From a virus: a DNA stretch of 23,261 bases. Below, in pieces: positions 443-13,889 of this stretch. The translations under genes were made by a program, and so were the position numbers. The notes beneath the pieces are model-generated. The model was not told the origin of the DNA and ran no database searches. It saw nothing but the letters and a program-made list of their open reading frames with translations. The stretch lies in IMG/VR virus record IMGVR_UViG_3300037153_001020, positions 1 to 23,261 of that record; one strand, written 5' to 3'. Position 1 is the first letter of the stretch; the number at the start of each line of letters is the position of its first letter.

Positions 443-1891
443 TCAGAAGGTGAGCAGCTCGCGCGAGGGCTCCGGCTGCTGCTCGGCCAGCGCGTCGGCG
501 CGCGCCTCGTAAGCAAGGATCGCCGCCACCGCCGCGTCGATCTTGTCCGGCGAGCTCGGGCGCGCCTTCGCCAGCCAGTAGCCGCCACGCGTGTTGTGCA
601 CGTGCGCGTTGAGCACGTGCGCGCTCAGCCGCTCGTCCTGCGCGTGCGGCAGCTCGCCGCTTGCCACGTCGGTCCTGAACCGCTCGGTCGCACCCTGGAA
701 GCGGCGGCGGTTGGTCGCGAAGCGCATCACCGCCGTCTCGCCGAACTCGCGCGCCCAGCCGTCGATCTCGCTCTGCCAGAGCGGCGGGTCGAAGTAGCCA
801 CGCACCACCCGGTACTCCTCGTTCGCCTCCGCCACCGCCGCGTCGACCTCCTCGCGCGGCACTTCCCACTCCAGCTCGCGCTGCCCCTTCTCCGTCCGAG
901 GCGCCTCCCACAGCGCCAGCACCTGCACCAGCCCGTCCTCGACCCGGCAGGCGACCAGCGCGGTCGCGTCATCGAGGCGCGAGCCGTCGAAGCCGAGCGC
1001 GATCCGGTCGCCGCGTTGCAGGCGCTCCTCGCTCGCCGCCGCGTGCCACTGCTCCGGGTCCATCCAGCGGTGCTCCGCGCTCACCCACAGCCCGCAGGCG
1101 AACCGCTGCCACTGCCACTCCAGCATCGAGGGCGAATCGTGCCGCTGCTGGAGCTCCTCGGCCGTCTGCCAGCTCGCCGGGTTCACCTGCTTGACGACGC
1201 GCATGTCGTGGTAGTCGTCACCCGCCTCCAGCGCCCACTCGTGCATCGCGAAACCGCCGTCCTCGCTGCGCGCGTAGACGTAGCGCCCGCGCCGCCGCAG
1301 ACTCGCCAGCCGCCGCGCCGCCGCCCGCATCTCCCCGAGCGGACTCAGCTCGTGCTCGCCCGCGACGCTGATCGCCACCATCTGTCCGGCGCGCGGTCCG
1401 AGCCCGTCGCGGAAGATCCCGTACAGCCCCGCGCTCGCCGCCCGGTGCAGCTCGTCCATCAGCGCCAGCGTCGGGATGATCCCGTCCGCCGTGTCCACAT
1501 CCGCCGCCAGCACGCGGATCCGGCCCGAGTCGCGCCGCGAGCGGATCTCGCGGTAGCCCCGGCGCACGAGCAGCCGCGTCTGGAGTCCCGGCGAGCGGCG
1601 CACGAACCCGGTCGCCTGGTCGAACAGGATCCCCGCCTGGTCGCGGCTGGTCGCGCCGATCACGCACTCCGCGTCGTCGGTCACGAGCAGGTGCCAGAGC
1701 GCGAGCGCAGCGAGTATCGTCGTCTTGCCGTTCTTCTTCGACAGCAGGATCAGCGTCTCGCGCACGCCCGCGAAGTAGTCGCGCAGCATCGCCCGCTGGA
1801 ACGGCTCCAGCACGAGCGCCCGCCCACTGTCCAGCCGCAGCGCCGCACAGAACCGCTCGAAGGCGGGCAGGTCAGTCGCCCGTGCGGGCAC
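443..1891 (-). CDS. terL: Terminase large subunit (DNA packaging ATPase/nuclease)
   Basis: This is the motor subunit that pumps DNA into the prohead and cuts genome-length units. The 482-residue length is normal for phage large terminases. The ATPase half shows a Walker A-like loop, SKKNGKT at residues 51-57, and a Walker B strand with paired acids, LALMDE ending at D146-E147. The C-terminal half has the acidic residues expected for the RNase H-like nuclease: D302 in 'GFDGS', D368 in 'GYFDPP' and D449/D452 in 'DKIDAA'. The GTG start at 1891 overlaps the end of the small-subunit gene by 20 bases and follows a weak GCGAGG, the usual coupled TerS-TerL arrangement. Family identity is very secure; exact nuclease residues are inferred from position. 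Confidence 0.95.
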   Translation of the reverse strand: MPARATDLPAFERFCAALRLDSGRALVLEPFQRAMLRDYFAGVRETLILLSKKNGKTTILAALALWHLLVTDDAECVIGATSRDQAGILFDQATGFVRRSPGLQTRLLVRRGYREIRSRRDSGRIRVLAADVDTADGIIPTLALMDELHRAASAGLYGIFRDGLGPRAGQMVAISVAGEHELSPLGEMRAAARRLASLRRRGRYVYARSEDGGFAMHEWALEAGDDYHDMRVVKQVNPASWQTAEELQQRHDSPSMLEWQWQRFACGLWVSAEHRWMDPEQWHAAASEERLQRGDRIALGFDGSRLDDATALVACRVEDGLVQVLALWEAPRTEKGQRELEWEVPREEVDAAVAEANEEYRVVRGYFDPPLWQSEIDGWAREFGETAVMRFATNRRRFQGATERFRTDVASGELPHAQDERLSAHVLNAHVHNTRGGYWLAKARPSSPDKIDAAVAAILAYEARADALAEQQPEPSRELLTF

Positions 1892-2411
1892 GCCGCCTCG
1901 CCGCCAGCTCGTCTACCTCGGCGAACGGGTCGGGCTCGTGTCCTGCCGCCGGCGCCGAGGCATCTTCCTCCGGCGGGACGCTCGCAGGCGCGCGCAGCCG
2001 GGTCGACACCCTGCCCCACCGCTCCGGGTAGCCGCGCTCCAGCAGCCACGCCGCCGCCTGCCAATTCTCGCGCGCGGCCGAGGCGATCTGCGCCACGTTG
2101 CGGACCTCGCCCTCGGCCAGCGCCTGCTCGATCCGCCCGACCAGCTCGCGGTAGAGCTCGTCGCCCGGCCGCTCGCTGCGCCCGCGCACCATCCAGTCGC
2201 GGAAGGTGCGCGGCGCCACCCCGGCCGCACGGCAGGCGACCTCGATGTAGTTGCCCGCCTTCAGCATCGCCTCCAGCCGGTCGATCACGTCCGGCTCCAG
2301 CAGGCTCGCCCGGCCGACCCGTTGCAGGTGGAAGGCGCAGAGCTCGTGCCCGCGCATCGCCGCCTTCTTGCAGGGCTCGCCCTTGGCGGTCGTCGCGCTA
2401 CACGAGGGCAC
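1872..2411 (-). CDS. terS: Terminase small subunit with N-terminal zinc-binding motif
   Basis: The small terminase recognises the packaging site and hands DNA to the large subunit. Its 179 residues include a helix-turn-helix at about residues 55-78 ('EVACRAAGVAPRTFRDWM') and the segment 'AAAWLLERGYPERWGR' typical of phage small terminases. At the N-terminus C4, C13, C25 and H28 form a probable zinc-binding knot, common in actinophage homologues. The GTG at 2411 lies inside the end of the glycosyltransferase gene (14-base overlap) and follows GGAGGG at a good distance. The gene is therefore translationally linked to both the DNA-modification genes upstream and terL downstream. Whether the zinc knot reads modified DNA is unknown. 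Confidence 0.88.
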   Translation of the reverse strand: MPSCSATTAKGEPCKKAAMRGHELCAFHLQRVGRASLLEPDVIDRLEAMLKAGNYIEVACRAAGVAPRTFRDWMVRGRSERPGDELYRELVGRIEQALAEGEVRNVAQIASAARENWQAAAWLLERGYPERWGRVSTRLRAPASVPPEEDASAPAAGHEPDPFAEVDELAARRRARTGD

Positions 2412-3162
2412 GCTGCCGCCCTCCGACCAGCCGCATCTCCGGGAAGCCGTACCGCTTCGTGCGCGCCCGGCGCACGTAGGCGGGCCACTGGCGCTCGATC
2501 GCGGCGATGTTCGCCTCGACCACCGCCACCGTCCGTCCCAGCCGGTCGCCCTTGGGCCCCGGCCGGTAGTAGGCCGTCGCCGGGCAGATGTAGTCGAGCC
2601 GCGCGAGCACGCCGTCGCGCTGCCAGTAGCGCAGCGTGCGCTCGTAGTCCTCCTTCGGGTCGCCCAGGCGCGGGTGCAGCTCCTCCTCGTGCCGGATCAC
2701 CGTCCCGTAGAAGCAGCCGATGATGTAGCTCAGGTCGGCCCGGATCCGGGCCCGCATGAAGAAGGCGTTGTGCACCGGGTAGATCCCCCACAGGTGCGCA
2801 CCGGTCCGTGCCGCCGCCCGGAAGCCCTCCTCAGCCACCGCCCGCAGGTCGACCGGGCGCAGCTCCTGGTCGGCGCCCAGCCGGTAGAGGCCGCGCACGT
2901 CGTCGTCCATCCAGACGACCTGCTCGCCCGCCGCGAAGTAGGCGTGCCCCAGCTTCCGCGAGGCCATCAGCCCCGGCGCCGTCACGATCAGCCGCTCCTC
3001 CCAGGCAGGCACCGCCGCCGCGTACAGCGCGCGCTCCTGCTCGTCGGCAACGAACAGGCAGACGCGCTCGTGCTCGACTCGCGCCTGCTCGATCAGCGCC
3101 AGCGTCTGCTGCCCGATCAGCGGCGCATGATCGTAGGTCGGCACGGCCACCTTCCAGCTCAT
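2398..3162 (-). CDS. TET-associated-type glycosyltransferase (GT-A fold), predicted DNA-base glycosylation
   Basis: A 254-residue GT-A-like glycosyltransferase. It opens with a nucleotide-sugar-binding type strand (KVAVPTYDHAPLI, residues 4-16), has a metal-binding acidic triad DDD at 86-88 within 'VVWMDDDVRGL', and a second acidic motif 'DPKEDYERTLRYW' at 168-180 where the catalytic base would sit. No signal peptide or membrane segment is present, so it acts in the cytoplasm. The ATG at 3162 overlaps the methyltransferase stop by ATGA and follows GGGAGG. Beside a TET dioxygenase and a C5-methyltransferase, the natural prediction is sugar transfer onto 5-hydroxymethylcytosine in DNA, as proposed for the TET-associated glycosyltransferase (TAGT) family. 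The sugar donor and linkage cannot be read from sequence. Glycosylation of a virion protein is an alternative. Confidence 0.82.
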   Translation of the reverse strand: MSWKVAVPTYDHAPLIGQQTLALIEQARVEHERVCLFVADEQERALYAAAVPAWEERLIVTAPGLMASRKLGHAYFAAGEQVVWMDDDVRGLYRLGADQELRPVDLRAVAEEGFRAAARTGAHLWGIYPVHNAFFMRARIRADLSYIIGCFYGTVIRHEEELHPRLGDPKEDYERTLRYWQRDGVLARLDYICPATAYYRPGPKGDRLGRTVAVVEANIAAIERQWPAYVRRARTKRYGFPEMRLVGGRQRALV

Positions 3163-3815
3163 GCCGCCTCCCGCAGCGCCTCGCGGAGCTGCGCCCCGAT
3201 CCAGTGCGTGAAGGCGGGCGGGATCGCCTCGCGCAGCTCCTCGCGGTTCGTCCAGCCGATCCCGAGCGCGCGCCGCTTCGTCCCGGTCGAGACGCCCTGC
3301 CGGTAGCGCCGGTAGAAGTCGCGCGGCGGGTTGTGCCCGAACACCGGCAGCGCCGGTAGCTCGTGGCGGCACGGCGGCGGTCGCCCGGCCGGGCTCCAGC
3401 CGCCCAGCTCGAAGATGCGGTGCCGCCGGACCTCGAAGCCGTCCGCCCGCAGCCCGAACATCGTCCCGCAGAGCAGCAGGTCGGCCCGCAGCGGCGCGGC
3501 GGGCACGTTCTCGATCACGTAGGGCAGCCCCGCCTGCTCCAGCAGCTCGCGCGTCGGGCCGATCAGGTCCGGGTAGTGCTCGCGCTCGTGCCACTCGCCG
3601 CCCTCGGCCCAGCGTTGACAGGGCGGGCTCGCATGGATCGCCTCGAACGGGCCCGCCAGCTCCAGCCACCGCTCCAGCGCGAGCGCGCTGCCACGCAGGA
3701 AGTTGAACGGGTAGCGCGGCTGCGGCGCGATGTCGACGCCGACCACCGTGAACCCGGCGCGCATGTAGCCGGTCGCCGAACCGCCCGCGCCGCAGTAGAG
3801 ATCGAGCAGCCTCAC
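3159..3815 (-). CDS. C5-cytosine DNA methyltransferase, compact phage type
   Basis: Predicted to transfer methyl from S-adenosylmethionine to C5 of cytosine. Motif I, DLYCGAGG, is at residues 5-12; motif IV, SPPCQ, at 63-67 with catalytic C66; motif VI, ENV, at 102-104; motif VIII, RRHRIFEL, at 130-137; and a late motif 'AIPPAFTHWIG' at 197-207. At 218 residues it is much shorter than typical bacterial C5-methylases, with only about 60 residues available for target recognition. The GTG at 3815 overlaps the TET stop (GTGA) and follows GGAGG at 8 bases. Upstream in-frame codons lie inside the TET gene and are not needed. No endonuclease partner is present, so it is not a restriction system; its product would be the substrate of the neighbouring TET enzyme. 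Confidence 0.9.
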   Translation of the reverse strand: MRLLDLYCGAGGSATGYMRAGFTVVGVDIAPQPRYPFNFLRGSALALERWLELAGPFEAIHASPPCQRWAEGGEWHEREHYPDLIGPTRELLEQAGLPYVIENVPAAPLRADLLLCGTMFGLRADGFEVRRHRIFELGGWSPAGRPPPCRHELPALPVFGHNPPRDFYRRYRQGVSTGTKRRALGIGWTNREELREAIPPAFTHWIGAQLREALREAA

Positions 3816-4624
3816 GCGAACCGCCTCCGCTCGCGCTCCGTCCGCCGCCGCTGCGCCAGCGCGACGCCCTCCGCCTTCGTCTCGCAGCGCCACATCTGCT
3901 GGAGCGAGTAGAAGACGATCGAGTAGCGGTAGCCGTCCGGCCGGGTCAGCCGGAAGGGGCTCACCCCGTGCAGGATCGCCTGCCCGTCGAACATGAACAG
4001 GGAGTGGTCGCCCAGCCGGAAACAGAGGTCGAGCTCCGGGCAGACCAGGTCGCCGCCGGTGCAGGCCTGCTTGAAGACGAGCATGTTGCTCCAGACGCCA
4101 GGGAAATTGCCCCGGTCGTAGTGGTAGGGGAGCTTGTTGTTGCGGTTGATGATCCCGCTCGTGAAGACGCCGCCGCCCAGCCGCCACTCGTCCAGCACCT
4201 TCGCGACCGTCTGCTCGTGCTCGGCGTATAGCTCCGGGTTGAGCTGCTGGTAGGCCTCCTCGACCACGGCCGCGAGCCGCGCGATCGCCTCGTGCGCGGC
4301 CGGGTCCTCCTGGGCCAGCTTCGCGCTGCGGCACGTCTCCTCGCCGCGCACGGTCAGCTTCGGCGCGTAGCCGAAGGTGCGCGAGCGCGAGCGCATCCCA
4401 CTCGTGCGCGCCGTCTCAGCGAAGCGGATCCGCCGCAGCGCAGCGACCGCCTCGGGCAGGCGCTCGTCCAGCTCGAGGTAGACGGCGCTCGGCCGCTCGC
4501 CGCCGTCGACGTGCACGACGCACGGGCCCGCGATCGCTCGCCCGACGTGCCGCTCGTCGGCGTAGGCGCCCCGGAACCGCTCGGGCTCGACCGGGTGCCG
4601 CTTCGCCTCAACCCGCAGCAGCAT
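3812..4624 (-). CDS. TET/JBP-family 2-oxoglutarate/Fe(II) dioxygenase, predicted 5-methylcytosine hydroxylase
   Basis: Predicted to oxidise the methyl of 5-methylcytosine in DNA to hydroxymethyl. The 270-residue protein carries the double-stranded beta-helix iron site: H168 and D170 in 'LPYHYDRGNF', H219 in 'AILHGVSPF', and R233 in 'GYRYSIVFYS' to bind 2-oxoglutarate. The surrounding pattern ('TSGIINRNNK', 'VWSNMLVFK', 'GGDLVCPE', 'LFMFDGQ') is that of phage TET/JBP proteins, as is the upstream 'SRTFGYAPKL...CRSAKL' segment. The ATG at 4624 follows GGAGG by 9 bases and overlaps the ParB-like gene by 17 bases. Its place directly before the C5-methyltransferase and the glycosyltransferase strongly supports a DNA-base role over a protein-hydroxylase role. 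The extent of oxidation and any sequence preference are unknown. Confidence 0.9.
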   Translation of the reverse strand: MLLRVEAKRHPVEPERFRGAYADERHVGRAIAGPCVVHVDGGERPSAVYLELDERLPEAVAALRRIRFAETARTSGMRSRSRTFGYAPKLTVRGEETCRSAKLAQEDPAAHEAIARLAAVVEEAYQQLNPELYAEHEQTVAKVLDEWRLGGGVFTSGIINRNNKLPYHYDRGNFPGVWSNMLVFKQACTGGDLVCPELDLCFRLGDHSLFMFDGQAILHGVSPFRLTRPDGYRYSIVFYSLQQMWRCETKAEGVALAQRRRTERERRRFA

Positions 4625-5195
4625 CGAGCAGCGCCTCCACGGTCGCCGAGTAGGACTCGTGCCCGCCCGCTGCCGCCAGCTCGTCCAGCCGCTCGGTCAT
4701 CGCCTGGTAGAGCTCGCGCTCGTAGCTGAGCACGACCCGGAAGATGGGCGCGCCGTCGCCGGCGGCACCGACGACCGGCGGTTCCAGGTAGAGCAGCAGC
4801 GCATCCACGTCCTCGAACGAGTACCCAGTGCCCTCCAGCTCGCCGCGCTCGCGCATCGGCGCCAGCAGCTCGCCGAGCAGCTCCTCGTCGTAGACGCCCA
4901 GGTCGCCGAGCCGGTTGTCAGCCAGCAGGTAGGCCTCGACCTCCGCCTCGGGCAGGTCGGACTGGACTACCGCGACGTGCGTCCAGCCCTCCGCCTGCGC
5001 TGCCCGCCAGACGTGATGCCCCGCCACGAGCGTCCCGTCCGGCAGCGCCAACAGCGGGCGCTGCTGCCCGAAGCGGCGCAGGCTCTTGCGGATCTCCTCG
5101 ACCGCGCCCCGGCGTGGGTTGCGCGGGTGCTCACGCAGCTCGCCGAGCGGCACGAGCAGCCCACGCAGCGCGTTCGGGCCCGACCAGCGGCTCAC
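4608..5195 (-). CDS. ParB/Srx-fold (ParB-like nuclease domain) protein, copy 1
   Basis: A 195-residue protein whose first ~110 residues form a ParB-like domain: 'HPRNPRRG' at 23-30, 'GQQRPLL' at 43-49, 'GTLVAGHHVWRAA' at 54-66 and 'LLADNR' at 90-95. The C-terminal part has no recognised domain. The GTG at 5195 overlaps the preceding stop (GTGA). It is clearly a paralogue of the protein encoded at 5449-6084, sharing motifs, spacing and the 'GTGYxxxDV' segment. Chromosomal-type ParB normally has a partner ParA and a helix-turn-helix; neither is seen, so plasmid partitioning is unlikely. Family members include nucleases, nucleotide-binding switches and small-molecule kinases. Position next to TET suggests a role linked to DNA modification, as inference only. 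Confidence 0.85.
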   Translation of the reverse strand: MSRWSGPNALRGLLVPLGELREHPRNPRRGAVEEIRKSLRRFGQQRPLLALPDGTLVAGHHVWRAAQAEGWTHVAVVQSDLPEAEVEAYLLADNRLGDLGVYDEELLGELLAPMRERGELEGTGYSFEDVDALLLYLEPPVVGAAGDGAPIFRVVLSYERELYQAMTERLDELAAAGGHESYSATVEALLDAAAG

Positions 5196-5452
5196 TCGTC
5201 CTCGCCTCGCTCGCCCGGCTCCAGCGACCAGCGCCGCGCCCACTCGACCAGCCCGAGCGCGCGCCAGGTCGTCATCTCGCGTGGGCCGTAGAAGGTGCCC
5301 GCGTGCGCGGTCGCCTCCTCGCCCAGCGCCGCCGTCTCATAGCAGACGACCCAGCCGGTGAGCACGAGCCCGTCGAGCACGCCCTCGCCGTGCAGCGCCT
5401 CCTCGATCGCCTCGTGCAGCCGCTGCTGCCGCTCCGCCTCGGCCTCGTTCAC
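5192..5452 (-). CDS. Hypothetical protein (86 aa) between the two ParB-like genes
   Basis: Begins VNEAEAERQQRLHEAIEEAL with a GTG at 5452 that overlaps the stop of the second ParB-like gene (GTGA), and itself overlaps copy 1 by 4 bases. The N-terminal 20 residues look helical and charged; the middle (LDGLVLTGWVVCYETAALG) reads as beta strands, and the end contains 'MTTWRALGLVEWARRW'. This resembles small unassigned actinophage proteins in general style, but I do not recognise a family. Being sandwiched between two paralogous ParB-like genes suggests it belongs to the same functional unit. Confidence 0.75.
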   Translation of the reverse strand: MNEAEAERQQRLHEAIEEALHGEGVLDGLVLTGWVVCYETAALGEEATAHAGTFYGPREMTTWRALGLVEWARRWSLEPGERGEDE

Positions 5453-6084
5453 CCGAGCACCAGCCTCGCCACCGTCTCCGAGGGAGTCTCGCCCTCGCGC
5501 GCGAGCTCGCCCAGCCGGGCCGCGACCCGGTCGTAGGCCTGCTCGTCGTAGCTGAGCACGATCCGGAACGCCGCCGCCGTGCCGGTTGCGTACGGCGCCT
5601 GCGCAGGCGCGAGCGCCCGCTGCGCCTGCTCCAGCTCGGCGGGCTCCAGCGTGAAGGCGAGCAGGCCGATCACGTCGTCCGGCGTGTAGCCGGTCCCGTC
5701 GAGCCCATCCGCCGCCGCCAGCGGCTGGAGCACTTCGGCCAGCGTGCGGTCGTCGTAGAGCCCGAGATCGGCCAGGCGGTTGTCGGCCAGCAGGTAGGCG
5801 TCGACCTCGTGCTCGGCGAGCTCCGTCCGCACGGCGGCGATCTGCGACCAGCCCTCGACCAGCGCCGCCTTCCAGACGTGATGCCCGGCGACGAGCGTAC
5901 CGTCCTCCTGCGCGAGCACCGGCCGCTGCTGCCCGAAGCGGCGCAGCGAGGCGGCGATCGCCGGGACGACGCCGCGCCTCGGGTTGCGCGGGTGCGGGCG
6001 CAGCTCCGCGATCGGCACCAGCAGCGCCCCGAGCGCCGCGTTGCCCTTCCAGGCGGGCGCGCTCGTCTCTCCGCCGCCGACCAC
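5449..6084 (-). CDS. ParB/Srx-fold (ParB-like nuclease domain) protein, copy 2
   Basis: A 211-residue paralogue of the protein at 4608-5195. The ParB-like motifs are 'HPRNPRRG' at 31-38, 'GQQRPVLA' at 51-58, 'GTLVAGHHVWKAA' at 62-74 and 'LLADNR' at 98-103. A GTG at 6084 is chosen because GGGGGAG sits 8-9 bases upstream and the start lies just after the HNH stop (6087). Upstream in-frame codons are also open but overlap the HNH gene without a ribosome site. The duplicated copies flank a small unknown gene, so the block may have arisen by tandem duplication. No ParA, Walker motif or DNA-binding helix-turn-helix is seen. Confidence 0.85.
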   Translation of the reverse strand: MVGGGETSAPAWKGNAALGALLVPIAELRPHPRNPRRGVVPAIAASLRRFGQQRPVLAQEDGTLVAGHHVWKAALVEGWSQIAAVRTELAEHEVDAYLLADNRLADLGLYDDRTLAEVLQPLAAADGLDGTGYTPDDVIGLLAFTLEPAELEQAQRALAPAQAPYATGTAAAFRIVLSYDEQAYDRVAARLGELAREGETPSETVARLVLG

Positions 6085-6086
6085 GC

Positions 6087-6485
6087 TCAGATCTCCCCCG
6101 GACTCTTTCTCGCGGAAGCTGACCCCGCCGGGGTCGCCGAGCCGGGCGGGGGGAGGGGCCACCCCTCCCTCCGCGCACGCAGCTCACGCTTCGTCTTCGC
6201 ATCGTGACAGCCAGCGCAGAGCAGACGCAGAGGCGAGCGCGGCTCGCCCTGGACCAGGTGGTCGACGCCGCCGCTTCCACGTGGAACCGCAGCACCACAC
6301 TCCGCGCAGCGGTGACCGAAGGCGCGCCGAACGGCAGCGCGCACGCTCGGCGTGAGCGCGAGCCCGAGCCGCTCGCGCCGCTCACGGTTGCCAGCCCAGG
6401 GCGCGGGCGCGTGCTGCGCACACAGCCCACGGCGCACGGCCGGGCGCGGGCAGCAGTCGCGGGCACAGGTCGACGCAGCCCTCAT
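6087..6485 (-). CDS. HNH endonuclease
   Basis: A 132-residue HNH-type nuclease. The core runs from about residue 56 to 102: zinc cysteines C60/C63 and C90/C93, the catalytic 'VDH' histidine H76, and 'LLCAGCHDAKTKRE' at 88-101 closing the fold. An additional Cys/His group at the N-terminus (C7, C11, C12, C22, H25) may bind a second zinc. HNH proteins often assist terminase or act in recombination; this one sits upstream of the modification block rather than beside terL, and could also be a homing-type nuclease. The ATG at 6485 overlaps the preceding stop (ATGA). The C-terminal tail from about 108 is low-complexity Pro/Gly/Ser/Ala and is encoded by hairpin-forming DNA. Confidence 0.85.
   Translation of the reverse strand: MRAASTCARDCCPRPAVRRGLCAQHAPAPWAGNRERRERLGLALTPSVRAAVRRAFGHRCAECGAAVPRGSGGVDHLVQGEPRSPLRLLCAGCHDAKTKRELRARREGWPLPPPGSATPAGSASARKSPGEI
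6121..6169 (-). repeat. Two adjacent perfect hairpins in the 3' part of the HNH gene
   Basis: GACCCC/GGGGTC with loop GCC (6121-6135) and GGGAGGGG/CCCCTCCC with loop CCA (6151-6169) lie 15 bases apart. They fall in the low-complexity tail of the HNH coding sequence, shortly before the next gene's start. High GC makes chance hairpins likely, but two perfect neighbours are notable. They may stabilise or process the mRNA. Confidence 0.4.
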
Positions 6486-11432: not shown

Positions 11433-12896
11433 GTGTCCAAGCAGTCCCGCCGTTCGCCCCGCGCCCTGCGCCGGGGCATCGGCTACATCCGTGTCTCCCG
11501 CGTCAACGGTCGCGACGGCGACTCGTTCATCAGCCCCGAGATCCAGCGCGACGCGATCCTCGCGCTCGCGAAGCTGAACGGCGTCAACATCGTCGGCTGG
11601 TACGTCGACCTTGACCAGTCCGGCAAGAAGGAGGACCGGCCCGAGTTTCAGTGCGCGCTCGACGCGATCGACGCGGGCGAGGCCTCGGTCATGGTCGTCT
11701 GGAAGATGAGCCGCTTCGCACGCTCCGTGCTCGTCGCGGAGAAGGCGCTCCGGCGCATCGAGGGCCCGGACAAGAAGCACCCGCGCGGGCAGCTCATCGC
11801 CGGTGACCTCAACATCGACACCACCACCCCGACCGGCCGCATGATGCGCGGGCTCCTGTCGCTCATCGCCGAATGGGAGAGGGAGATCGCCGAAGAAGGC
11901 TGGATCGAGGCGAAGGAGCGCGCGGTCGCGCGCGGGCTCCTGATGACCCGCCGTGCCCCGCTCGGCTACCGCTTCAACAACTGCATCGAGGGCGAGCTGG
12001 TCGACACCGCACTCGCCGCCCGCGCGCTCGTGCCGGACCCCGACACCTGCGAGCTCGCGGTGCAGGTCTTCGTCCGCCGCGCCGCCGGTGCGTCCTGGTC
12101 GGAGCTGGTCGCCTACCTGCGCGAGCACGGCATCCGCATGTCGCGCCAGGGCATCTCCAAGATGATCGCCAACCGCGCCTACCTCGGCCACGTCGTGCAC
12201 GGCACGATCGCCGTCAACGAGGACGCGCACGAGGCGCTTGTCTCGCCCGAGCAGTGGCAGGCTGCACAGTCGCAGCACGTCGCCGCACCGCGCCCTGCGC
12301 GCAACGGCAACGGCGGGTCGCTGCTCGCGGGCATCCTCGTCTGCGGCTCCTGCGGCGGTCGCATGACCGCCTCCAACAACGGCAAGGGCAAGGTGCAGTA
12401 CCGCTGCGCGCAGTCGGGCCACGAGGCCTTCATCTGCCCGCGCCCGCTGCGCGTGCTCGCTGAGCGGGCCGACCCGGTCGTGGAGGAGCGGTTCCTCACG
12501 TGGGCCAAGGGTCGCGCCGAGGTCGAGGGCACCCCCGACGCCTCCGCCCTGGACACCGCCCTGGTCGCCAAGGAGCAGGTCGAGGCAGAGCTGGTCGCCA
12601 CCATCGAGTCGCAGTCCGCTGCCCGGCGCCCGCATCTGTTCAACGCCAAGATCGCACGCCTGGAGGACGACCTCGACGCGGCCGAGGCGCGGGTCGCCGA
12701 GCTGCGCGCCGCCGGTGTCGGCGAGACGCGCCGCACCGATGCGGTCGCCCTCTGGCCGGAGCTGTCCACGCCCGAGCGCAAGAAGCTGATCGCGGCGGCG
12801 GTCGAGGAGGGTCACGGCAAGGTCGTCCTTCACGCGCCCGAGTCCTCCGGTCGTGCCGTGCCCTTCGCCGAGCGGTCCGAGGTCGCCTTCGGCTGA
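11433..12896 (+). CDS. int: Large serine integrase (site-specific recombinase)
   Basis: Catalyses integration of the phage into the host chromosome by serine-linked strand exchange. In the 487-residue protein the resolvase-type domain holds the catalytic serine S22 in 'GYIRVSRVNG', 'EIQRDAI' and the active-site arginines in 'KMSRFARS' (R94, R97). The recombinase domain follows ('APLGYRFNN', 'GISKMIANRAYLGHV'). Then comes the zinc ribbon 'VCGSCGGRM...YRCAQSG...CPRP' and a coiled coil rich in Glu/Ala/Arg with final 'LWPELSTPERKKLI'. This is the normal order for large serine integrases. The GTG at 11433 is chosen because AGGAGG (11422-11427) lies 5 bases upstream; an earlier in-frame ATG at 11364 lies within the attP candidate. 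It is the only plus-strand gene seen. Confidence 0.95.
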   Translation: MSKQSRRSPRALRRGIGYIRVSRVNGRDGDSFISPEIQRDAILALAKLNGVNIVGWYVDLDQSGKKEDRPEFQCALDAIDAGEASVMVVWKMSRFARSVLVAEKALRRIEGPDKKHPRGQLIAGDLNIDTTTPTGRMMRGLLSLIAEWEREIAEEGWIEAKERAVARGLLMTRRAPLGYRFNNCIEGELVDTALAARALVPDPDTCELAVQVFVRRAAGASWSELVAYLREHGIRMSRQGISKMIANRAYLGHVVHGTIAVNEDAHEALVSPEQWQAAQSQHVAAPRPARNGNGGSLLAGILVCGSCGGRMTASNNGKGKVQYRCAQSGHEAFICPRPLRVLAERADPVVEERFLTWAKGRAEVEGTPDASALDTALVAKEQVEAELVATIESQSAARRPHLFNAKIARLEDDLDAAEARVAELRAAGVGETRRTDAVALWPELSTPERKKLIAAAVEEGHGKVVLHAPESSGRAVPFAERSEVAFG

Positions 12897-13005: not shown

Positions 13006-13290
13006 TCACCGCTCCTCCTCGCGGTACTCCAGCATCAGGCCTTCCACCCGTGCCGTGAACCCGCCCACCGTGCCGACCTCCTCCTCGTGCTGCACCCGTA
13101 GGATGCCGCCCTCGTCACGCCGCAGCGTCGAGCGGACCACGGTCGCTTCCGGCCCCTCACCGAGCGCGTAGAGCACGAGCGCCGCGCCCGCCGGCGTCTC
13201 GACCGCCGCCATCATCTGCTCCGTGCGCGCGCCCACCGCCTCGGCGTACTCGGCGAAGCGGGCGCCGCTTCTCCAGAGCGCCCGCGTCAT
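13006..13290 (-). CDS. Hypothetical protein (94 aa), partner of the PAS-domain gene
   Basis: ATG at 13290 overlaps the stop of the PAS gene (ATGA), so the two are translated together. It begins MTRALWRSGARFAEYAEAVG and continues with an amphipathic helix, then strand-rich sequence ('GAALVLYALGEGPEATVVRS', 'GGILRVQHEEEVG') and ends in charged 'LMLEYREEER'. No domain known to me. As the only companion of a sensor-like protein it may be its output or binding partner. It ends just before the convergent terminator hairpin. Confidence 0.7.
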   Translation of the reverse strand: MTRALWRSGARFAEYAEAVGARTEQMMAAVETPAGAALVLYALGEGPEATVVRSTLRRDEGGILRVQHEEEVGTVGGFTARVEGLMLEYREEER

Positions 13291-13889
13291 GGCCGCACCA
13301 CCAGGTGGAACTGGAACAGGCAGGCCGCGAGCCCGGTTGCCAGGCCGACGTACCAGTTGCCGTCCTCCGCCTCGATCACGTGCGTGCGGATGAAGTAGAG
13401 CGTGCGCCCTGCCAGGGTCACCACCCGCCCGCGCCAGCGCACCGGCACATCGTGCCCGCACCGGTGCCGCGCCAGCACCAGCCCCTCGTGATGCCCGTTC
13501 ACCGCCAGCTCCGTGCGCGCCTCGCTCAGGTCCTGCCCCGAGCCGCGCATGTGCTCCGTCGACCGGCCGACCAGCTCCTCCGGCTGGTAGCCGAGGCTCG
13601 CCGCCGCCGCCGGACTCGCCGCCAGCACGACGCGCTGCTCGTCCACCAGCCAGAGCAGCTCGTCACTCCTCTCCAGCCGCGCACCCAGCAGCCGCGTCAG
13701 GTCGTGCCGGGCCCGCCCGCTCATCACCGTCTCGACCACGCCCAGCACGTGCTCGGTCAGGTTCACGTCCGCCGCGTGCGTCCCCCCGATCGCAGCGGCG
13801 AGCCGCCCCATCACCTGCTCGACCTGCTCCTGGTCGTAGACCTCAAGCTCGGCCAGCAGCTCCTTCGTCCCGCGCAGCAATCCCCCCAT
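13287..13889 (-). CDS. PAS-domain protein with C-terminal membrane segment
   Basis: A 200-residue protein. The N-terminal third is helical and charged ('LLAELEVYDQEQVEQVMGRL'). Residues about 75-172 form a PAS domain: 'DELLWLVDEQRVVLAASPAA', 'SLGYQPEELVGRS' (98-110, the hallmark helix), then 'RHRCGHDVPVRWRGRVV' and 'GRTLYFIRTHV'. Residues 178-198 ('GNWYVGLATGLAACLFQF') are hydrophobic and would anchor the C-terminus in the membrane. No kinase, GGDEF or phosphatase output domain is present. ATG at 13889 has GAGGAGG a few bases upstream and begins a new transcription unit. PAS proteins bind small ligands or haem/flavin and sense redox or metabolites; this is uncommon in phages and suggests a lysogeny-expressed accessory gene. 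Ligand unknown. Confidence 0.75.
   Translation of the reverse strand: MGGLLRGTKELLAELEVYDQEQVEQVMGRLAAAIGGTHAADVNLTEHVLGVVETVMSGRARHDLTRLLGARLERSDELLWLVDEQRVVLAASPAAAASLGYQPEELVGRSTEHMRGSGQDLSEARTELAVNGHHEGLVLARHRCGHDVPVRWRGRVVTLAGRTLYFIRTHVIEAEDGNWYVGLATGLAACLFQFHLVVRP

Follow-up and report, generated by a model that had tools for sequence, protein, structure and literature searches.

A TET dioxygenase operon of a GC-rich phage, probably for cytosine hypermodification, with an optional methyltransferase and an exchangeable last enzyme

Clusters of genes for a C5-cytosine methyltransferase (C5-MT), a TET dioxygenase and glycosyltransferases have reportedly been described from phage metagenomes by Burke et al. 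2021 (PNAS), with a proposed route from 5-methylcytosine (5mC) over 5-hydroxymethylcytosine (5hmC) to glycosylated cytosine. The same three kinds of gene stand in one operon (positions 4624-2398) of IMG/VR virus record IMGVR_UViG_3300037153_001020, a stretch of 23,261 bases with 73% GC, called the window here. Compared through a citing paper (PMC12730594), the window appears to differ from those clusters. It holds a single TET-associated glycosyltransferase (TAGT) where they have a couple of glycosyltransferases, its methyltransferase (MT) is small, resembles M.HaeIII and occurs in few relatives, and its set lies in a string of ParB and terminase genes in which the last enzyme swaps between close relatives. 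Joint action of phage C5-MT, TET and glycosyltransferases has already been published (Burke et al. 2021, as cited in PMC12730594). This kind of pathway is thus known; what the comparison appears to add is a swap slot measured against its neighbours and an optional MT.

Glycosylated 5hmC would result, as in phage T4, but in T4 the 5hmC arises in the nucleotide pool and the glycosyltransferases belong to different families, whereas the window has no thymidylate-synthase-type hydroxymethylase (PF00303). The TAGT family (PF20691), including the T6-type enzyme, shares with the window glycosyltransferase (GT) the GT-A fold, a DDD motif and a location beside a TET or in a modified-cytosine phage. One TAGT has been judged the likely maker of T6-type di-glucosylated cytosine (PMC13390438). 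Whereas the T6-type enzyme puts a second sugar on glucosyl-5hmC, the window GT would add the first. Kinetoplastid base J, made by JBP and a glucosyltransferase, shows the same succession of TET/JBP oxidation and glycosylation on DNA; it begins from thymine, whereas the window operon contains a C5-MT.

Among cultured phages, the same gene order follows ParB in Acadian and Indlovu (Mycobacterium) and in Altadena and Prairie (Arthrobacter), which hold the nearest cultured relatives of the GT (up to 37.6% identical). These four carry a PIG-L deacetylase and no C5-MT was found in their genomes. ParB-TET-TAGT-PIG-L cassettes of cultured phages were located at 1707-3025 in L175, 1727-3048 in L176, 6720-8068 in L007 and 4001-5331 in L177. 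Such a cassette may produce an amino sugar, if an N-acetylhexosamine is transferred to the DNA and its acetyl group is then removed there. PIG-L was also sought, as a hint of an amino sugar, in the window and its close relatives and was not found; because it is absent from the window clade, no sugar was assigned to the GT.

The three genes of the operon are the following.

3812..4624, minus strand: TET/JBP Fe(II)/2-oxoglutarate dioxygenase of 270 aa, recognised by Pfam, fold and catalytic residues
3159..3815, minus strand: small C5-cytosine methyltransferase of 218 aa with a GTG start, recognised by motifs and phrog_363
2398..3162, minus strand: TAGT-like glycosyltransferase of 254 aa with a GT-A fold, DDD at 86-88

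The original prediction had called three overlapping genes here and named their key residues. All three were confirmed and the residues of the TET (H168, D170, H219, R233), the MT (DLYCGAGG, SPPCQ, ENV) and the GT (DDD) were exactly in place. A match to phrog_25200 (96.6 bits) was among those showing that the three-gene set is not due to chance. The GTG start of the MT overlaps the TET stop (four bases, GTGA) and the MT stop overlaps the GT start (four bases, ATGA), which suggests translational coupling of the three genes. They form part of a longer string of overlapping frames called on the minus strand from 6162 to 443, in the order ParB-orf-ParB-TET-MT-GT-TerS-TerL (TerS and TerL, the small and large terminase subunits).

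The dioxygenase is a member of the TET/JBP family. The Pfam profile Tet_JBP matched with 54.3 bits (cut-off 34.9). The HxD...H triad and arginine are present, with H168, D170 and H219 as iron ligands and R233 for 2-oxoglutarate, and these four residues were invariant across 30 diverse TETs with identities down to 38%. In a fold search of the PDB with the AlphaFold2 model (pLDDT 92.7), the top 26 matches were all TET/JBP proteins, including CMD1, CcTet, NgTET1 and human TET2, with E-values from 1.3e-12 to 9e-9. The first other 2-oxoglutarate enzyme, an ABH2-type DNA repair protein, followed at 2.4e-7, and AlkB-type and FTO proteins ranked below the TET/JBP family. Profile and structure thus bore out the family assignment of the original prediction, and the predicted activity is oxidation of a 5-methylpyrimidine in DNA. 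Phage TETs of this family are often annotated as 'queuine tRNA-ribosyltransferase' or 'DpdA-like' (L005, L006, L008, L175, L176 and many phage records; phrog_6059), labels that conflict with the Tet_JBP profile and the fold.

The MT carries motif I (DLYCGAGG at 5), motif IV (SPPCQ at 63), motif VI (ENV at 102), motif VIII (RRHR at 130) and an X-like motif, IPPAFTHWIG. It matched phrog_363 (DNA methyltransferase) with 103.7 bits, and a PDB search with a profile of three MT orthologues returned M.HaeIII first (E 5.4e-6). The variable region for target recognition is very short, which makes a short target site plausible. Cultured phage records with a relative of the MT number 296, and mycobacteriophages make up 171 of these.

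For the GT, DNA-base glycosyltransferase is the best assignment, judged from sequence and model. A GT-A fold, a DxD motif and linkage to a TET are all present. Among 27 aligned GT homologues from TET loci, 20 matched TAGT (E up to 0.01, best 1.5e-38), and D87 of the DDD motif, D172 and G205 were invariant in this alignment. The AlphaFold2 model (pLDDT 88.2) retrieved phage glycosyltransferases as top matches from BFVD (S-CBWM1, TM 0.84), several of them named TAGT, and also matched a T6-type beta-glucosyl-HMC-alpha-glucosyltransferase of Klebsiella phage PKO111 (TM 0.72). A sequence search of the PDB gave nothing useful with the single protein and one weak GT-A match with a profile.

The best single reading of the window, to which we give a moderate probability, is a series from cytosine to 5mC, 5hmC and glycosyl-5hmC in finished DNA. 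The C5-MT would methylate cytosines at a short site in the phage DNA, the TET would hydroxylate the methyl group of 5mC to give 5hmC, and the TAGT-type GT would attach a sugar, donated by a sugar nucleotide, to the hydroxyl of 5hmC. A series is preferred because the MT lies between the TET and the GT and occupies the same place, between the TET and the last enzyme, in the related contigs L001 and L002. The MT-TET-GT order and the four-base overlaps fit sequential post-replicative modification of cytosine, and the MT diverges in parallel with the TET (TET 81/73% and MT 76/61% identical in L001/L002). Modification would come late, just before or together with packaging; such timing is probable because the cassette is co-translated with ParB-like proteins and the terminase, which suggests action near packaging. 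The mark would then guard the packaged genome against restriction by the host, a role that such modifications usually have and that is established in other phages. The data show the identities of the genes, their fold and catalytic residues, the overlap of the genes in one string, their conservation in relatives and the exchange of the last gene; that the three enzymes work one after another on a single base is inferred, and so are the base, the sugar, the timing and the protective role.

The original prediction saw no nucleotide hydroxymethylase, and neither the window nor any of 15 related records gave a PF00303 enzyme; for dCTPase and nucleotide kinases, which it did not see either, no profile search of the whole window was made. 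The missing PF00303 enzyme speaks for modification of the polymer and not of the nucleotide pool. The window is about half as long as related contigs (43.0-43.9 kb), so absences within it prove little and the argument leans on the relatives.

The neighbourhood of the TET was compared across related loci. Searching viral contigs with a distant TET profile gave 555 relatives; the 80 best were retained, and counts cover 47 non-redundant TET loci. A ParB gene lay at most three genes upstream of the TET in 44 of these 47, making ParB its most constant neighbour. A recognised add-on enzyme was likewise found near the TET in 44 of 47: TAGT alone in 23, an FkbM methyltransferase in five, and for the remainder a P-loop kinase, an amino-acid:DNA transferase (ADDT), an FAD oxidase or another GT, singly or combined. 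These kinds are scattered over the TET tree and differ even in the nearest clade of eight members (support 99), in which the TAGT of the window recurs in L004, L001 has a different TAGT-like GT, L009 another TAGT group, L002, L011 and L012 an FkbM and L003 a Ploopntkinase3. With its nearest relative, L001, the window shares 81% identity in the TET, 76% in the MT and 80% in TerL, and only 27% in the GT (shuffled 22 +/- 2%). With the more distant L004, it shares 69% in the TET and 68% in an orthologous GT. The last enzyme has therefore been replaced and its neighbours retained; by these sequence comparisons, the gene beside the TET is a swap slot for add-on enzymes.

FkbM-type methyltransferases stand beside the TET in L002 (7478-8158), L012 (6804-7490), L011, L043 and L045 and are candidate O-methylators of hydroxymethylated bases. 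In L018 and L019, two different TET genes lie near each other around position 6000, with several ParB genes; the L018 contig is 327 kb long.

Two family scores are weak, though both genes have the further support given above. PF00145 scored the MT at 17.1 bits, under the cut-off of 22, and the GT was borderline for PF20691 (27.3 bits with a cut-off of 27.5; 27.8 in the genome search), which weighs against the cytosine series. The MT is still called a C5-MT because a cut-off is a score convention and not a mechanistic feature. The distribution of the MT also weighs against the series. Its own profile found it in just 4 of the 47 TET loci, PF00145 recognised C5-MTs in 7 of 33 related records, and 16 cultured TET-phage records, the complete genomes of Acadian, Indlovu, Altadena, Prairie, Nigel and CaiB among them, had no match to either PF00145 or phrog_363. 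No TET lay within 6 kb of any of the 80 nearest MT homologues in viral contigs, and the MT was dropped as a way of finding more TET cassettes. The close sister L012 (TET 70% identical) has a TET and an FkbM and no recognised C5-MT. It is most cleanly compared with L002, with the TET 76% and the FkbM 68% identical between the two and the MT placed between TET and FkbM in L002. Both contigs are probably complete, since their ends overlap (2,330 bases at 99.9% in L002; 54 bases, 53 of them matching, in L012). The substrate of the TET and FkbM of L012 would therefore be host 5mC or thymine.

The MT is thus, by its distribution, an optional part of the cassette. Of the series put forward in the original prediction, the enzymes are supported and the pathway is plausible; the base is less certain, since a C5-MT is missing in most relatives. 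As these include close ones with similar TETs, action of the window TET on 5mC is likely rather than certain.

The main rival explanation, possible but unlikely, is that the TET hydroxylates thymine, as JBP does, that the GT then makes a base-J-like glycosyl-5-hydroxymethyluracil, and that the MT works independently as an orphan methylase guarding cytosines. A TET and TAGT without a recognised C5-MT is the rule, as in the cultured Acadian, Indlovu, Altadena and Prairie, and TETs with an adjacent MT and TETs without one share 61-76% identity and the same invariant residues. Other relatives of the TET carry ADDT, Ploopntkinase3 and an FAD oxidase instead of a GT, a set known from thymidine hypermodification. 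Against thymine stands the embedding of the MT between the TET and the last enzyme, with four-base overlaps in the window and the same place in two relatives. In addition, L004, which has the orthologous GT, contains a C5-MT-like gene elsewhere on the contig (L198, G004:C1:14389-15337, minus strand), away from the TET locus, read in two frames and apparently frame-broken. Characterised phage TETs oxidise 5mC (Burke et al. 2021, as cited in PMC12730594 and PMC11404850). For the operon family as a whole, it is likewise possible but unlikely that its TETs are thymine hydroxylases, in which case TET-TAGT would be the counterpart of base J in bacterial viruses and the C5-MT an added independent mark.

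It is distinctly improbable that the cassette works chiefly on 5mC supplied by one of the host's methyltransferases, with the phage MT doing no more than widening the set of sites. Such a source agrees with the close relatives in which a TET stands with an add-on enzyme and no C5-MT is recognised, but it leaves the position of the MT inside the operon unexplained. The only host hint is one weak TerL relative (38%) in a metagenome-assembled genome of Acidimicrobiia.

That the GT acts on protein, teichoic acid or a surface glycan, its adjacency to the TET being incidental, is very improbable: the solved structures it matched were only generic GT-A enzymes, many of them for the cell wall (TarP, TarS), but at TM ~0.55 these are weak beside phage TAGTs (TM up to 0.84) and the beta-glucosyl-HMC-alpha-glucosyltransferase, and TAGT is the sole recognised add-on in 23 of 47 TET loci. 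The fold search thus made a cell-wall enzyme less likely and, with the profile, placed the GT among TET-associated phage enzymes, as originally predicted.

The other genes of the string are these.

5449..6162, minus strand: ParB-like protein 1, a paralogue of ParB-like protein 2 (52% identical)
5192..5452, minus strand: 86-aa open reading frame between the two ParB genes, a gene call without family match
4608..5195, minus strand: ParB-like protein 2, 195 aa, with a GTG start at 5195 (the mechanical open reading frame begins at 5243)
1872..2411, minus strand: terminase small subunit (phrog_4102, 113.9 bits), downstream in the overlapping string
443..1891, minus strand: terminase large subunit (TerL_ATPase 63.7 bits, TerL_nuclease 38.9 bits)

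ParB-like protein 2 matched ParB_N with 23.3 bits (cut-off 26.3) and phrog_620 with 108.8 bits. Both ParB paralogues also match phrog_498, in a ParB portion of phage DNA-methyltransferase families.

The source is a GC-rich tailed phage and probably temperate, as a large serine recombinase is encoded on the plus strand at 11433-12896, among minus-strand genes. Adjoining it at 13287-13889 on the minus strand is a PAS-domain protein, which seems unusual for a phage. A search for the TET in genome contigs gave no match. PADLOC reported type II methyltransferase models only and no defence system in the window, and no compositional trace of a modified site was seen, the odds ratios for CG (1.23) and GC (1.19) being like those of MT-less relatives.

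If the TETs of this operon family were thymine hydroxylases, the phage would bear two different modified pyrimidines, and the decoration of hydroxymethyluracil would swap between close relatives among a sugar, an FkbM-added methyl group, a phosphate and an amino acid. The contrast between L002 and L012 makes it testable which pyrimidine the MT-less phage TETs oxidise and, more broadly, the optional MT and the swap slot open the question of the substrate to experiments with laboratory phages. On an almost unchanging background, the slot lists candidate enzymes for decorating DNA and is of use in the search for new glycosyl, methyl and amino-acid transferases with DNA as substrate, and for new chemistry by which restriction is escaped.

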